NCBI GenBank assembly: GCA_030692375.1
Contig: JAUYCD010000171.1
Location: 1-32,883 of the forward strand
Length of the DNA stretch: 32,883 nucleotides
Direction: 5' to 3'
Origin: Candidatus Latescibacter sp.
GTDB taxonomy: Bacteria; Latescibacterota; Latescibacteria; Latescibacterales; Latescibacteraceae
The notes below the pieces were generated by a model. The model was not told the DNA's origin. It made no database searches and was given only the letters and a program-made list of their open reading frames with translations. Numbering within the stretch: position 1 is the first letter of the stretch; each line of letters begins with the position of its first letter. Made by a program: the position numbers and the translations under genes. Positions 4,599 through 15,573 of the stretch are shown here, piece after piece.

Positions 4599-4654
4599 GA
4601 TTTTTTTTAGGATTTTTAAAAAAAATATATTTCTATATGTATTGAGTATATAGA

Positions 4655-4757
4655 TCCTGAAACGAGTTCAGGATGACACGTGTCATGCGCTGGCTTCGAC
4701 AGGCTCAGCCAGCGGGCACTGAGCTTGTCGAAGTGCCGCTTCGCGGGAACGATGAAA
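4655..4757. repeat. Composite palindromic repeat (copy 1)
   Basis: Outer element: hairpin TCCTGAA-ACGAG-TTCAGGA (4655-4673), palindrome ATGACACGTGTCAT (4673-4686), then 'GCCGCTTCGCGGGAACGATG' from 4735. The same text occurs inverted at 15460-15526. Inside copy 1, in place of a short 'CCGAACTTGTT' linker, lies a second element of about 48 bp: 'CTGGCTTCGACAGGCTCAGC' plus 'GGCACTGAGCTTGTCGAAGT'. That inner element recurs inverted and expanded at 10524-10636. No protein is encoded; this is a nested, REP-like repeat family. Confidence 0.7.
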
Positions 4758-4833: not shown

Positions 4834-5433
4834 TTACCATTTTTCCCAATGGATGTTGGCCGGGTCCCACTTATCCTTGGGCTTTTCCGCTCCGGTAGGA
4901 TAGCCGATGGAGATGATATTAAGCGGCTGGATCTCCTCAGGCAGACCAAGCACCCGTTTGACATACCTGGTCGGCTCCGGGTTGAGCCAGATGCCGCACC
5001 ATACCGCGCCCAGCCCTATAGCTTCGGCGGCCAGCAGGATATTTTCAGATGCGGCGGAGCAGTCCTGTATCCATACCTCGCTTTTACTCTTGCGGGTATT
5101 GCCGCAGACCACAATGGCGGCTTTGGCCTGGGCGATATGCTTGGTATAGGGCGAGGAGAAGGAGAGCGTATCCAAAGTCGCCCGGCTGGTCACCACCACA
5201 AAAGCCCAGGGACGGTTGTCCCCTGCGGTGGGAGAGGCCATACCGGCGCGGAGAAGGGTTTCAATCTGCTCTTTGGTTACCGGTTTGTCAAGGTATTTCC
5301 GCACGCTTTTCCGGCTGTGAATGACTGACAATGCATCCGGGATTTTAGCATTTCCCTGGGCAAAAAGCGTTATCGGTATAGAACTAAAAATCAGCGCTGC
5401 GAATACTGCAAGAAACAGGAATCTCTTAATCAT
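4834..5433 (-). CDS. Exported nitroreductase-family flavoprotein (paralog 1)
   Basis: 199 aa. Residues 1-25 (MIKRFLFLAVFAALIFSSIP...LFA) form a Sec-type signal peptide without twin arginines. The mature part is a compact nitroreductase: 'SRKSVRKYLDKPVTKEQ' supplies the FMN-phosphate arginines, 'ASPTAGDNRPWAFVVV' is the substrate/FMN loop, and 'LLAAEAIGLGAVW' plus 'ISIGYPTG' complete the fold. Members reduce nitro groups, quinones or flavins with NAD(P)H. An exported FMN enzyme is unusual, and its partner is unknown. ATG at 5433 is chosen, with AAAGGA upstream; an in-frame start at 5490 would overlap the antitoxin-like gene. It is near-collinear with the paralog at 8439-9047. The two flank the cassette array. 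Confidence 0.88.
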   Translation of the reverse strand: MIKRFLFLAVFAALIFSSIPITLFAQGNAKIPDALSVIHSRKSVRKYLDKPVTKEQIETLLRAGMASPTAGDNRPWAFVVVTSRATLDTLSFSSPYTKHIAQAKAAIVVCGNTRKSKSEVWIQDCSAASENILLAAEAIGLGAVWCGIWLNPEPTRYVKRVLGLPEEIQPLNIISIGYPTGAEKPKDKWDPANIHWEKW

Positions 5434-5486
5434 GGTTTGGCGTCCTTTGTGAAGGGTGGGTTTATGGTATTGAAATTGGATTTTCA

Positions 5487-5714
5487 TCAAGGTCTGTTCT
5501 TTTCGATTTCTGCAAATACCTGTTCCGCCGGGATTGCCGCCATTTCACCCCGCTCGAATGCATCAATTCGGTCTTCTGTTTCTTGAGCCCACAATGCATC
5601 AATGGTTTTCCTTGAACGAAATTCAAAGCTGGAAAGGAGGCTCTCAACCAACTCGGCGCGTTCAACAGGCGACAATTTCAATGCTTCCTCGAGAATCTGG
5701 TCATGGTTCGGCAT
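5487..5714 (-). CDS. Orphan addiction-module antitoxin-like protein (Unstab_antitox/TIGR02574-like)
   Basis: 75 aa, the usual length. 'ILEEALKLSPVERAELVESLLSS' followed by a 'RIDAFERGEMAAIPAEQVFAEI' tail is characteristic of the small antitoxins normally paired with a RelE/ParE ribonuclease or gyrase toxin. Here no toxin follows: the next gene downstream is the nitroreductase, 53 bp away. A good ribosome-binding site (GGAGAGGTG) precedes the ATG. The gene begins about 70 bp after the last attC, so it is either the terminal cassette with its attC and toxin lost, or a resident orphan antitoxin. It could act as a decoy antitoxin for a toxin elsewhere (inference). Confidence 0.75.
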   Translation of the reverse strand: MPNHDQILEEALKLSPVERAELVESLLSSFEFRSRKTIDALWAQETEDRIDAFERGEMAAIPAEQVFAEIEKNRP

Positions 5715-5786: not shown

Positions 5787-5845
5787 GCATAACGTTAAAG
5801 CTCAGAAGAGGCGTACTCGCATTCCTCTGGAGAGCTTTGATATAC
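5787..5845 (-). other. attC site of cassette 3 (59 bp)
   Basis: Read on the minus strand: R'' GTATATC (5845-5839, degenerate), arms GAGCTTT (plus 5832-5838) and AAAGCTC (plus 5797-5803) forming a perfect 7-bp stem, an inner 5-bp stem CCTCT/AGAGG (5824-5828 / 5807-5811), then R' GTTATGC (5793-5787) preceded by AAC. The length equals the classical 59-base element. The stop codon of the upstream gene (5849) lies 3 bp away. Confidence 0.75.
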
Positions 5846-5848
5846 ATT

Positions 5849-6397
5849 TTATATTTTTTTCCAAAGATTTATAAAAGATATCCTAACATCTTTTATGCTT
5901 TGAAATGTTTCTTGATAGCTAATCTCATGTTTTTCTGGTAATGAATTACAATCTTCTTTAAATGGATTTTTAAAACCTTTTCTATGTTTAAACGAATTAA
6001 CTTTATTTCTCATTCTAAAAATATTGTTAAAGTAGTCTATTTCACCAAGTTTAATTTTATAATAATTTTCTATTAATTCAACTATTTGATTAATTTTTAA
6101 ATCAAAAATGGTTTTATTAGGTTTTATATTTTTGGTGTTGTGATATGCTTCTGAAGCTAAACACCACAGTTCCCATTCAACGAGAGCATTTAGCTCACAT
6201 AGAGAAGCACGGATAGCAATTTCCTTCCATTGCATAGGAATAAAATATGCATTTGCTTCATCATCATAATGATTGAATTCATTTTTATTAGATCTCTCAT
6301 TTATTTTTGAATATTCTAACTCCGCTGAACATTTTATATTTTTTAAAAAAGACTCAATAGCACTTAGTTCAATATCTAGTAAAATTAATTTGCTCAT
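5849..6397 (-). CDS. Hypothetical AT-rich cassette protein, possibly HEPN-like
   Basis: 182 aa, not recognised. It is mainly helical and rich in Lys, Asn, Ile and Glu, with no signal or membrane segment. 'FRMRNKVNSFKHRKGF' (about residues 127-142) resembles the RN...H segment of HEPN-type helical proteins, but the Arg-His spacing is longer than the usual Rx4-6H, so a HEPN call is only suggestive. Base composition is far more AT-rich than the neighbours, pointing to foreign origin. ATG at 6397 is chosen for its AAAGGA ribosome-binding site; an upstream in-frame start would run into the preceding attC. It is the third cassette gene and ends 3 bp from attC 5787-5845. Confidence 0.75.
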   Translation of the reverse strand: MSKLILLDIELSAIESFLKNIKCSAELEYSKINERSNKNEFNHYDDEANAYFIPMQWKEIAIRASLCELNALVEWELWCLASEAYHNTKNIKPNKTIFDLKINQIVELIENYYKIKLGEIDYFNNIFRMRNKVNSFKHRKGFKNPFKEDCNSLPEKHEISYQETFQSIKDVRISFINLWKKI

Positions 6398-6410
6398 TTT
6401 ATTTTCCTTT

Positions 6411-6482
6411 ATATAACACCAGCGCTCACTGGTGAAGATGAAGCGAAGCGGAATCCCTGTCAATTGCAGCGCCTTGTTAGGC
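6411..6482 (-). other. attC site of cassette 2 (72 bp)
   Basis: Read on the minus strand: R'' GCCTAAC (6482-6476), then AAGGCGCTG, and at the other end GAGCGCTGGT leading to R' GTTATAT (6417-6411). The GGCGCT/AGCGCT arms (plus 6468-6473 and 6421-6426) pair with one wobble, and an unpaired G follows on one side, as in folded attC sites. The TAA stop of the upstream gene (6477-6479) is inside R'', a hallmark of cassettes. R' departs from GTTRRRY at one position. Confidence 0.78.
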
Positions 6483-7337
6483 GCCTGCTTTGGACGTCCG
6501 CACGCCCCATCTGAAAGTCTGCTTATGACGACCTGGCTTCACCCAAAACACAGCTCCGTTGGCGAGAGTGAATTCGTAATCCCACGGCGCAGTGAGTTTC
6601 GGGCGCGGTAGTATGTCGGCTGGTAGATGCGGCTTAATCGTTGGGTGCTCCGTCCATCCGGGGCCTGTTTCTCGGAACCGGGTCCAGCCGAGCCCGACAT
6701 CAGATAGCTGCCAGAGAGATCCATCGGCTAGCTCGAATATGAGGGGCTTCAAGCCATCGGCCAAAGTAAACTCCCAGACTCGAATCAGGCACTGTCGCCT
6801 GCTCAGCTTCTTCTCCAACTTCCTTACAGATTGCCTGTCGGGAAGAGGCTCTTGGGACTCACCCGCAAGAATCCGTCTCAGACCATCTTGAAGCACCTCC
6901 ACGGTTAGTCCAAGTTCTCGGTACTTGGGCTCAGACCACTCCGAAACATGGGTGTCAAGCTGGTCGAATAGCTCCGTGTAGCCGTCAAGCTCTGAGATTA
7001 GTTGTTGCACGTTCTCAACGCAAAACATAAGGTGCGCGCGCTCGAACCAGAAGTGATGCGCAAGAAAATTCCGCGCCTCTACAGCTTCCTGAAGCTCGGC
7101 ATTTAGTTCGGCTGGAAGCACGCCCTCAAGCTTAGTGGCGACATCGCCGAGAGTCAGGGAGAAAGTCTGGGCCAATTGTTCCTCCACCCTCGGGCGTGTG
7201 ATAAGATCGCGGGACGGTAGTCCTGAACAAGCAAGAATCATGCAAAGCTCTCGGTACAGGCATTCACTTTGGTAGTACGCCAAACCGAACCTCGCGTACA
7301 GTTCGCGGATCAGATCGTCCCCGGGCTGGTTGTTCAT
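6477..7337 (-). CDS. Cassette protein with HEPN-like N-terminal domain and unknown C-terminal domain
   Basis: 286 aa, no family recognised. The first ~150 residues are helical and contain 'EARNFLAHHFWF' (R89, H94), which fits the Rx4H motif of HEPN ribonucleases, with the typical N after R. Residues about 185-286 are probably beta-rich with repeated W/F/G positions ('FTLADGLKPLIFELADGSLW', 'FTLANGAVFWVKPG') and look like two copies of a short module. No signal or membrane segment is seen. As a lone HEPN-like cassette gene it could be a toxin or anti-phage effector (inference). ATG at 7337 is used; an in-frame TTG at 7343 is equally possible, and neither has a strong ribosome-binding site. Its stop codon lies in the attC. 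Confidence 0.8.
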   Translation of the reverse strand: MNNQPGDDLIRELYARFGLAYYQSECLYRELCMILACSGLPSRDLITRPRVEEQLAQTFSLTLGDVATKLEGVLPAELNAELQEAVEARNFLAHHFWFERAHLMFCVENVQQLISELDGYTELFDQLDTHVSEWSEPKYRELGLTVEVLQDGLRRILAGESQEPLPDRQSVRKLEKKLSRRQCLIRVWEFTLADGLKPLIFELADGSLWQLSDVGLGWTRFRETGPGWTEHPTIKPHLPADILPRPKLTAPWDYEFTLANGAVFWVKPGRHKQTFRWGVRTSKAGA

Positions 7338-7364
7338 CGCCAATCTCTATCTTGCCTCTCATAC

Positions 7365-7420
7365 ACCGAACGTAAAAATCAGCCAGAGCGTAAGCGATTG
7401 GCTGAATTGCCTTGTTGGAC
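7365..7420 (-). other. attC site of cassette 1 (56 bp)
   Basis: Read on the minus strand: R'' GTCCAAC (7420-7414), AAGGCAATTCAGCC, a loop of about 15 nt, GGCTGATTTTTAC, R' GTTCGGT (7371-7365). TCAGCC/GGCTGA (plus 7400-7405 and 7379-7384) pair perfectly; a T-T mismatch and further A-T pairs extend the stem. R' departs from GTTRRRY at one position. It lies about 97 bp beyond the stop of the DUF4393 gene. Confidence 0.75.
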
Positions 7421-7516
7421 AACGATTTTTTCCTTTGGCGTTGACCTCTGTCAAGGGATGACCCCACATCCTCACTCTACGAAGCGGGCCACCCGGTCGC
7501 CCTCAATCCTGTTGCA

Positions 7517-8212
7517 TCACTTGTTTGAGTACACATCTATGCTAAAGCCTTCTGGAATGCACGCCTTTGTAAAAAAGTCACCGAAAGCCGTAGATTTAAT
7601 GACTGATGACTCTATGGTACTCGTATCATCCATAATTACTTCTTCGCCATCGCTTACGAGATTGAGTGACTTTAAATGAAGGATATATGCCTCTAAGTGC
7701 TCTGGGTAAGCCAACTGATTAGCGGGAAACTCAGTAAGGTCGAAGTCATTCGATTGATTGTAGTACAGCCAACGAGTTTTGCCCCGAAGTATGTACAAGA
7801 TAAGCGCTTCATCGGGTGTCAACTGTTCAATGATGCCAACAAAACTGGGATGCGCTTCGTTTAATCGTTCCTTGTCAATTGCTCGTTTTAGTAGTTCAAG
7901 GAATAAGACCGTCAGAGGATTACCGTCATCCATGAAAAAAAGAGCACGAAGTACCGGAGCAGCTATTGAAGAGGATGCTTCAGTTTGACTCTCTTCTGGG
8001 ACTTGGCTTCGTACTTGATCGAGCCACCGAGCGAATCTATCCTGCGCAAGAGCAGCAAGCTGAAATGGTGCCGTGAAAAGTCGGAAAGTTTTCAACGCGT
8101 CGGTTGTCATACCACCGACCTGCTTAAGCGGTCCGCTGGCAGCGTCGTTGTAGGCTAACTTCACCAATTGTGAATCTGCAAGTTTTCCAAGTCCTGTCAG
8201 ATCATCAACCAT
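7517..8212 (-). CDS. DUF4393 / Abi-alpha family protein (putative abortive-infection protein)
   Basis: 231 aa. The second half 'NEAHPSFVGIIEQLTPDEALILYIL' is the signature of DUF4393 (Abi-alpha), whose members read 'HPSFVEIIKQLSP.DA.IL'. The upstream helical part 'LVKLAYNDAASGPLKQVGG...FRLFTAPFQLAALAQDRF' also matches the family pattern. These cytoplasmic proteins have been linked to abortive phage infection; the molecular activity is unknown. No signal or clear membrane helix is seen. A GGAGGAG ribosome-binding site precedes the ATG by 8 nt. It is the first cassette of the array, 40 bp from the cassette edge at 8252, with no promoter apparent between, so expression would depend on read-through from upstream. 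Confidence 0.8.
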   Translation of the reverse strand: MVDDLTGLGKLADSQLVKLAYNDAASGPLKQVGGMTTDALKTFRLFTAPFQLAALAQDRFARWLDQVRSQVPEESQTEASSSIAAPVLRALFFMDDGNPLTVLFLELLKRAIDKERLNEAHPSFVGIIEQLTPDEALILYILRGKTRWLYYNQSNDFDLTEFPANQLAYPEHLEAYILHLKSLNLVSDGEEVIMDDTSTIESSVIKSTAFGDFFTKACIPEGFSIDVYSNK

Positions 8213-8438
8213 CGTAAAATCTCCTCCCTATCGTGTTCAAGCCGCTGCCCAACAAATAATTCTGCAGCCCACTTCATAACACCCAATTAAAAATATTTCT
8301 CTCGAATCGCAAGTAAACCGGATATCATCCGATGTTTGTGTATTTTTCTTTGCGAACTTTGCGAACTTTGCGAGACAAGTGTTTCAAAGGTTTCTATCTT
8401 TTCTCCTGTCTCCTGGCTCCTGGCTCCTGACTCCTGAA
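8213..8438. other. Outer edge of the cassette array with core site and repeats
   Basis: The minus-strand core GTTGGGC (8253-8247) fits GTTRRRY and marks where cassette 1 joins the chromosome or a lost attI/attC; no palindromic attC arm is visible on its far side. At 8343-8374 lies a copy of the 'CGCAAAGTTCGCAAAGTTCG' repeat also found at 32581-32612. At about 8400-8436 there is a pyrimidine-rich run of 'CTCCTGGCTCCTGACTCCTG'-like units. Confidence 0.55.
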
Positions 8439-9047
8439 TTACCACTTTTCATAATGGATGTTTGTCGGGTCCCACTTATCCTTGGGTTTTTCCTCGCCGG
8501 TGGGATAGCCGATGGAGATGATGTTGAGCGGCTGGACCTCCGCCGGAAGCCCTAGCACCCGCTTTACATATTTGGTCGGCTCGACGTTAAGCCAAATCCC
8601 GGTCCAGACTGCGCCAAGCCCGATGGCTTCGGCGGCCAGCAGGATATTTTCAGATGCGGCGGAGCAGTCCTGGATCCATACTTCGCTCTTCAGCCCCTTC
8701 CGGGTGTCGCCGCAGACCACGATGGCGGCTTTGGCCCCAGCGAGTACCCTGGTACCCCGGGTGGAAAACGAGAGGGTATCGAGCATGGCGCGCCCGGTCA
8801 CCACGACGAACGCCCAGGGACGTTTATCTGCGGCGGTGGGGCTGGCCATCCCGGCGCGGAGAAGGATTTCAAGCTGGTCTTTGGTCACCGGCTTGTCCAG
8901 GTACTTCCGCACGCTTTTCCGGCTGTGAATGACAGTCAATGCATCCGGAATTTTTGTTTTTTCCTGGGAGAATACTGTGAGTGGGAAAGCCGAAAACACG
9001 AAAGAAACAAGGACAAGAGAAAGGAATACTGCGCGCACCGCTTTCAT
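8439..9047 (-). CDS. Exported nitroreductase-family flavoprotein (paralog 2)
   Basis: 202 aa. A Sec signal peptide (MKAVRAVFLSLVLVSFVFSA...VFSQ) precedes a nitroreductase core with 'SRKSVRKYLDKPVTKDQ', 'ASPTAADKRPWAFVVV', 'WIQDCSAASENILLAAEAIG' and 'IISIGYPTGEEKPKDKWDP'. It is collinear with, and very similar to, the paralog at 4834-5433; differences concentrate in the signal peptide and the middle loop ('RGTRVLAG' versus 'PYTKHIAQ'). ATG at 9047 has GGAGG upstream; the longer in-frame start at 9071 would put charged residues before the signal peptide. Function is inferred to be NAD(P)H/FMN-dependent reduction in the envelope; cofactor loading outside the cytoplasm is unexplained. Confidence 0.88.
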   Translation of the reverse strand: MKAVRAVFLSLVLVSFVFSAFPLTVFSQEKTKIPDALTVIHSRKSVRKYLDKPVTKDQLEILLRAGMASPTAADKRPWAFVVVTGRAMLDTLSFSTRGTRVLAGAKAAIVVCGDTRKGLKSEVWIQDCSAASENILLAAEAIGLGAVWTGIWLNVEPTKYVKRVLGLPAEVQPLNIISIGYPTGEEKPKDKWDPTNIHYEKW

Positions 9048-9524
9048 GGCTGCCTCCAGGGATAAAACCACTTTAATTTCTGAAGCGAGGGAATATTTAC
9101 CAAGAATATGCAGAAGCGGCGCTTATTAGTCAAATAAAATCATCATTTGAAAATATGCATGAGAGCCATCATTTTCACTTCTCAAATCCCTGCATTCTTT
9201 ATATCTTAATCAACGCCGGGTTCATCGGATAATACTTCTCTTTGACCCGATATATTTTTTTGTTGCTTATCGAGTTAACTCAGTTTGTTGAATAATACGA
9301 GTAAATAAAAGGCCTCACCCCCTGGCCCCCTCTACAACAAGTTAGAGAGGGAGAAACCCATCAGCAATTTTCTAAGGCATTGTTTATAAAGCACATCTGG
9401 GTCTTCCCCTCTATTGCGTGCAAGAGAGGGGATTATGGGGTGAGTTAAAAGCGGTAAAAATTTATATCAGCTTGCTGTCTAACCTTGATAAGCGATTTTT
9501 TCTTTCCTGTGAAAGGACACCTTC
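9048..9524. other. Intergenic region with a palindromic repeat element
   Basis: No gene is seen in these 477 bases between divergently oriented genes, so promoters for both sides should lie here; none is clear enough to mark. The notable content is the repeat at 9314-9444. Confidence 0.4.
9314..9444. repeat. Palindromic intergenic element with CTCACCCC...GGGGTGAG ends (copy 1)
   Basis: Terminal CTCACCCC (9314-9321) and GGGGTGAG (9437-9444) are inverted. Inside are hairpins such as CCCCTCT (9406-9412) with AGAGGGG (9425-9431). A related element with the same ends is at 15574-15674. It is non-coding and MITE-like in form, with no transposase nearby. Confidence 0.6.
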
Positions 9525-15332: not shown

Positions 15333-15459
15333 TGAAAAGGGAGCAGTTGCAAAGGTCGGATAAAAAGAGTATTTTTTTACGTTTATCAGACATCGATGTA
15401 TTTTATTACGTTTCTTTTCAAAATAGATGCCGAAACGGTTGCTAAAAGATGCGCTGCGC

Positions 15460-15526
15460 TTTCATCGTTCCCGCGAAGCGGCAACAAGTTCGGCATGACA
15501 CGTGTCATCCTGAACTCGTTTCAGTA
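15460..15526. repeat. Composite palindromic repeat (copy 2, inverted)
   Basis: 'TTCATCGTTCCCGCGAAGCG', a 'GCAACAAGTTCGGC' linker, ATGACACGTGTCAT (15495-15508) and 'CCTGAACTCGTTTCAG' form the reverse complement of 4655-4757 without the nested 48-bp insert. The linker also matches the hairpin near 1792-1812. Confidence 0.7.
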
Positions 15527-15573
15527 TCTAATTCCATATTACGTTCATGATGACACGAATTTCAGGTTCATTA

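Follow-up and report, generated by a model that had tools for sequence, protein, structure and literature searches.

A predicted integrase-less integron cassette array and its attI-like start site, one of at least 16 dispersed in the genome of Candidatus Latescibacter sp.

Three genes, each followed by a predicted attC site, lie one behind the other on the minus strand between positions 5787 and 8253 of the window, which is the whole of contig C171 (32,883 nt) of a 3.9-Mb draft genome (MAG; G000) in 273 contigs with a completeness of 97% and a contamination of 3.4%. The comparison sample comprised 64 genomes of the phylum and four genomes of the family, all four of the latter being fragmented drafts. 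RpoB identity is 65% to phylum members, against 55% to Riflebacteria, the nearest named match, which rules out Riflebacteria as the phylum of the host. REP-like dispersed repeats at 1789–1818, 4651–4688 and 15457–15531 of the window have many 85–100% identical copies on other contigs of G000, and several of the contigs bearing the further strong attC sites have such repeats in common with the window, so that these contigs probably belong to one genome. An Rfam search of the window gave no match.

The attC sites were sought with a covariance model built from 17 aligned sites of annotated class 1 integrons, other plasmid integrons and two phylum members; the model contained no window sequence, and the window was scanned with filters off. 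The three palindromes taken for attC sites in the original prediction proved to be the three best matches in the window, all on the minus strand, with 30.0 bits (6411..6482), 29.8 bits (5787..5845) and 18.2 bits (7365..7420), the last being a moderate score (E 0.09 in the window); the next match reached 9.5 bits. The suggested folding of the bottom strands was better than that of shuffled DNA at the sites beginning at 5787 (z -2.8) and 7365 (z -2.2), and no better at 6411 (z -0.7). Of the R''/R' cores described for every site, the R'' of the 5787 site is degenerate (GTATATC) and lacks the AAC triplet. Cutting at G^TTRRRY on the minus strand yields cassette 1 of 882 bp (8252–7371, from the attI cut to the attC cut), cassette 2 of 954 bp (7370–6417, from attC cut to attC cut) and cassette 3 of 624 bp (6416–5793, likewise between attC cuts, as read from the sequence), exactly the lengths first proposed, and a single gene precedes each attC site, as had also been stated. 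In cassette 1 the attI core and the R'' (GTCCAAC) are complementary at 6/7 positions, and in cassette 2 the core of the preceding site (GTTCGGT) and the R'' (GCCTAAC) pair only partly by inspection; core complementarity is imperfect in both cassettes 2 and 3. The sites of the window escaped a strict scan for perfect cores, since within an array each site takes its R' and its R'' from different cassettes. At least two attC sites thus lie within 4 kb with no intI nearby, and the absence of intI from the whole 32.9 kb agrees with what had been reported. Judged by the attC model and the cassette structure, the earlier reading as an integrase-less cassette array was right, and by its sequence the locus is a CALIN-type, integrase-less integron array of three cassettes, starting at its own attI-like site.

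The gene of cassette 1 (7517..8212, minus strand) codes for a 231-aa protein of the Abi_alpha family (PF14337, Pfam E 2e-25; PADLOC PDC-S47, E 2e-25), which is a candidate defence protein. The genes of cassette 2 (6477..7343, minus strand, up to 288 aa) and cassette 3 (5849..6397, minus strand, 182 aa from ATG) belong to no known family. Neither the cassette 2 protein nor, above the cut-off, that of cassette 3 matched Pfam, NCBIfam or PADLOC, and the single-sequence structure models of both were poor (pLDDT 38). For the cassette 2 protein, a search against the named genomes gave no relative; a plasmid of Candidatus Tenderia encodes a distant one (30% over residues 9–158). Directly past the last attC lies a lone Unstab_antitox gene (5487..5714, minus strand; Pfam E 2e-15), followed by neither a toxin gene nor an attC, which possibly represents a fourth, truncated toxin-antitoxin cassette. 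Two nitroreductase genes with a DNA identity of 78–85% (4834–5490 and 8439–9071) flank the array, and the relatives G007 and G008 have one nitroreductase gene each. An empty insertion site was sought in the relatives and none was shown; the nitroreductase contig of G008 stops shortly past the gene, and synteny is absent.

The core GTTGGGC at 8247–8253, ahead of cassette 1, had been listed as a core site. It is indeed the insertion core, but it forms the end of a conserved attI-like element (type A; 8247..8317, minus strand) that had not been recognised. This copy scores 68.2 bits against the attI-A model, which includes it, is 84–86% identical to copies on contigs C140 and C18 (8251–8312 against the sequence just ahead of the SIR2 gene of C140, 84%), and forms no hairpin over its approximately 70 bp (0 kcal/mol). 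The promoter scan of the window element found no site on the cassette strand and that of the C18 copy found one, at background level; therefore, no Pc promoter is claimed.

Eleven type A copies were found in G000 (C171, C140, C229, C18, two on C258, C187, C99, C155, C96 and C264; 44.8–75.8 bits), together with five clear copies of a second family, type B (C180, C212, C244, C264 and C137). The mean pairwise identity of the 20 bases ahead of the core is 75% in type A and 91% in type B, that of the GTT of the core is 100% and 87%, respectively, and that of the 20 bases past the core is 26% and 27%, the random value being about 25%. The upstream flanks align as far as the core, the downstream flanks do not align near it, and the left ends of the copies are ragged rather than sharp. 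A conserved, non-hairpin sequence that ends at G^TTRRRY and is followed by different cassettes is therefore present, and a conserved flank with a sharp border at the core is the pattern expected of an attI that is followed by a different cassette in each copy; the putative function as attI is assigned from position and sequence. At no fewer than 16 places in G000, attI-like sites appear to lead into captured genes, and most would hold one to three cassettes, several of which resemble defence or toxin-antitoxin genes. Among the products of the first genes behind the copies are Abi_alpha, SIR2, TIR, a PemK toxin, DUF6946, an AAA_15 ATPase that resembles GajA and AbiLi, and unknown proteins; the TIR gene is followed by a RelA/SpoT gene. 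Integron cassettes are known to carry toxin-antitoxin and defence genes; several of the cassettes lack any defence or toxin-antitoxin match. On C258 (2489–4454) the order is attI-A, GajA/AbiLi-like ATPase gene, attI-A, small gene, with no detectable attC between. On C212 (10803–11196) a single cassette with a type B attI lies between gspF-like and gspG-like genes, apparently inside a secretion or pilus operon.

Besides the window sites, five further strong attC sites (31.4–34.7 bits) were identified in G000 on C229, C212, C140, C122 and C99, with one gene directly ahead of each, against a background in which 57 of the 64 phylum genomes gave no match to the attC model at E<=0.01. At several of the 16 attI-like sites (C258 twice, C155, C96 and C137) no attC was detected after the first gene. 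A circular cassette supplies its own TTRRRY at the start and its R'' at the end of the inserted copy, and the two should therefore be complementary within one cassette. This was examined in 11 attI-gene-attC units, 10 in G000 and one in the related genome G006, whose attC had been found with the model independently of the attI core. In these units, the attI core and its own R'' pair at 40 of the 44 variable positions, whereas shuffling of the partners gave a mean of 23.8 and none of 200,000 permutations reached 40. The set includes the weak attC of C18 (15.1 bits), and it leaves out the C264 unit with the TIR gene, which has a 7/7 core match and was found by a core-guided search. The complementarity across the 11 units implies that separate cassettes were inserted at the attI-like sites by integron recombination.

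No IntI above the curated cut-off was found in the four family genomes, two of which are at least 95% complete, and among the phylum genomes it was found in 7 of 64. The other tyrosine recombinases of the family genomes are probably Xer- or phage-like, judging by score. A complete integron, with an intact IntI bearing the IntI-specific domain, was not identified, and present activity is unsupported, because none of the four family genomes has an intact IntI. Remnants of the gene do occur. On C180 the C-terminal last 36 or so amino acids of IntI are encoded immediately ahead of a type B attI, which a gene and an attC follow, and on C212 the last codons of the IntI reading frame, as read from the sequence, are kept just ahead of a type B attI. 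In G006, which belongs to another genus, C684 (2526–2855) carries an IntI gene of 109 residues with an in-frame internal deletion (residues ~39–254 missing), followed in one direction by attI, gene, attC, gene and attC, and its attI core matches the R'' at 7/7 positions. These three layouts indicate that attI lay downstream of intI in this family, as in archaeal integrons (PMC9668308). Beside the attI-like copies of G000, only remnants of intI were seen for type B (C180 and C212); the window has no intI, and at the type A sites searched no IntI fragments were found. In another family of the phylum, long attC sites (~120 bp) lie close to an intact IntI, and the layout is the standard divergent one (G059 C7, 2278–13760).

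By its sequence, the attI-like element is also carried by related genera. In G008, an attI-A copy on C108 (36.5 bits) is followed by a DUF3788 gene and then by an attC of 23 bits, and in G007 a copy is located on C312 (33 bits). A vapBC-type pair lies divergently beside attI-A in two genera, on C155 of G000 (4863–5584) and on C312 of G007 (486–1207); the content past the attI-A core differs, a hint of conserved sites whose content changes, but synteny is absent beyond the vapBC-type pair.

The reading that we prefer, with a probability of roughly 85%, is that the three-cassette array stands at its own attI-like site with no adjacent integrase and was built by recombination of the IntI kind, coming from elsewhere or from the past, and that the same holds for about 15 other sites. 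The observations that bear on this mechanism are the attC sites, the attI repeat family, the sharp border at the core, the core/R'' complementarity, the IntI fragments and the presence in related genera. The substrates of an IntI-kind tyrosine recombinase would be the double-stranded attI and the bottom strand of circular cassettes in its folded form, both cut at G^TTRRRY; the cassette would go in between the two halves of the attI core, and repeated insertion would build the array, as it would at the other dispersed attI-like sites of G000. We infer the enzyme to be IntI, acting in trans or before the loss of intI, and the timing of the events likewise; the cassettes may be expressed from upstream promoters.

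G000 is rich in REP-like repeats, and the palindromes could in principle be of that kind or due to chance, an explanation that the attC scores, positions, orientation and core complementarity leave hardly credible. It is very improbable, too, that the cassettes entered generic secondary sites of the attG type without any attI: such insertion is known for IntI1 (as cited in PMC12901181 and PMC12444791), and the CALINs of Xanthomonas lie at several loci, but attG sites would have no common sequence beyond the core, and do not predict the same repeat of 70 bp or more that is found ahead of the core at 11 (or 5) sites. A further possibility, that the integron is active and the array an ordinary CALIN belonging to it, with the intact integrase missing from incomplete or mis-binned MAGs, is rather unlikely. 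All four family genomes are drafts in many pieces, the completeness of G000 is 97%, and drafts inflate CALIN counts according to the authors of IntegronFinder (PMC9024848); however, the enzyme is absent from all four genomes, the IntI fragments are genuine partial genes inside contigs, the repeats common to the contigs argue against mis-binning, and 16 attI copies would be left unexplained.

How the attI-like sites multiplied bears on what the scattered units are. They may be the remains of several whole integrons, duplicated or acquired, that lost intI by decay and now form a fossil system, for which we see about even odds. The IntI ends just ahead of type B attI on C180 and C212, the internally deleted IntI ahead of attI in G006, the ragged left ends of the attI copies and the lack of an intact IntI in the four family genomes speak for such decay, whereas the type A sites searched have no IntI fragment, core and R'' still pair perfectly in many units, and the cassette genes are open. 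Alternatively, and only tentatively, the type A attI (~70–240 bp) would itself have spread as an independent repeat, for instance within attI-ORF-attI cassettes moved by IntI, giving a scattered network of landing sites for a single integrase acting in trans. The eleven type A copies have no intI remains, the tandem arrangement on C258 has the matching order, and in class 1 integrons cassettes with the attI-ORF-attI layout are able to recombine (PMC12901181); on the other hand, the copies have no common right end or terminal repeats, and no integrase was found to serve the network. Integron decay is best supported for type B, and spread of attI itself is possible for type A. A bolder version, which we consider doubtful, is a dispersed integron, in which more than a dozen orphan attI sites on the chromosome of this family, multiplied independently of intI, would take up defence cassettes at numerous loci simultaneously with the integrase in trans.

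Integrons have been reported from many phyla and Archaea (PMC9668308, PMC9024848) and IntI occurs within this phylum, so that the extended host range outside Proteobacteria, proposed in the original prediction for the case of an FCB-type host, carries little weight. Sites of the attI type are hardly described outside class 1 (PMC9024848), and the typical description of an integron places a single attI next to intI, whereas here 16 attI-like sites occur in one genome. From the two attI families, with their sharp borders and the internal control that core pairing provides, consensus sequences of attI can be drawn for an undescribed lineage, and a 16-site genome makes it possible to test directly if capture sites can multiply independently of the integrase. 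Standard software has no search for attI, and would therefore overlook the pattern and list the loci as separate CALINs or lone attC matches. In a limited literature search a repeated attI family was not encountered, which does not prove the absence of precedent.

CALINs, defined as clusters of attC with no intI nearby (IntegronFinder, PMC9024848), have in common with the window locus the three clustered attC behind co-oriented genes away from intI, but the array described here begins at a conserved attI-like site, and more attI-cassette units are scattered over the genome. In archaeal integrons attI lies immediately downstream of intI (PMC9668308); here likewise intI remains are followed by attI and co-directed cassettes (C180, and C684 of G006), although intI is reduced to fragments. 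The Xanthomonas CALINs at several chromosomal loci resemble the present case in cassettes lying away from intI and in the progressive loss of the integrase, while repeated attI at these loci is not described in the available part of that report (PMC12444791) and the cassettes of G000 begin at repeated attI. The attI-type (Delta-attI) cassettes of class 1 and 2 integrons share the attI-ORF-attI layout with C258, but what follows the ORF there, in mobile integrons, is for the most part a short remnant of attI, unlike the long attI ahead of genes on a chromosome found here (PMC12901181). The sole precedent found for an intI-less array with its own attI is the CALIN of the Shewanella prophage M16-3, which likewise has attI at its start (PMC9892861); there, one extra attI exists beside a complete integron, whereas here at least 16 copies of two families occur with no intact intI. 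What is unusual about the array is that its start is an attI-like site of which at least 16 lie dispersed over the genome, and it is this, not the host range, that is the notable point.
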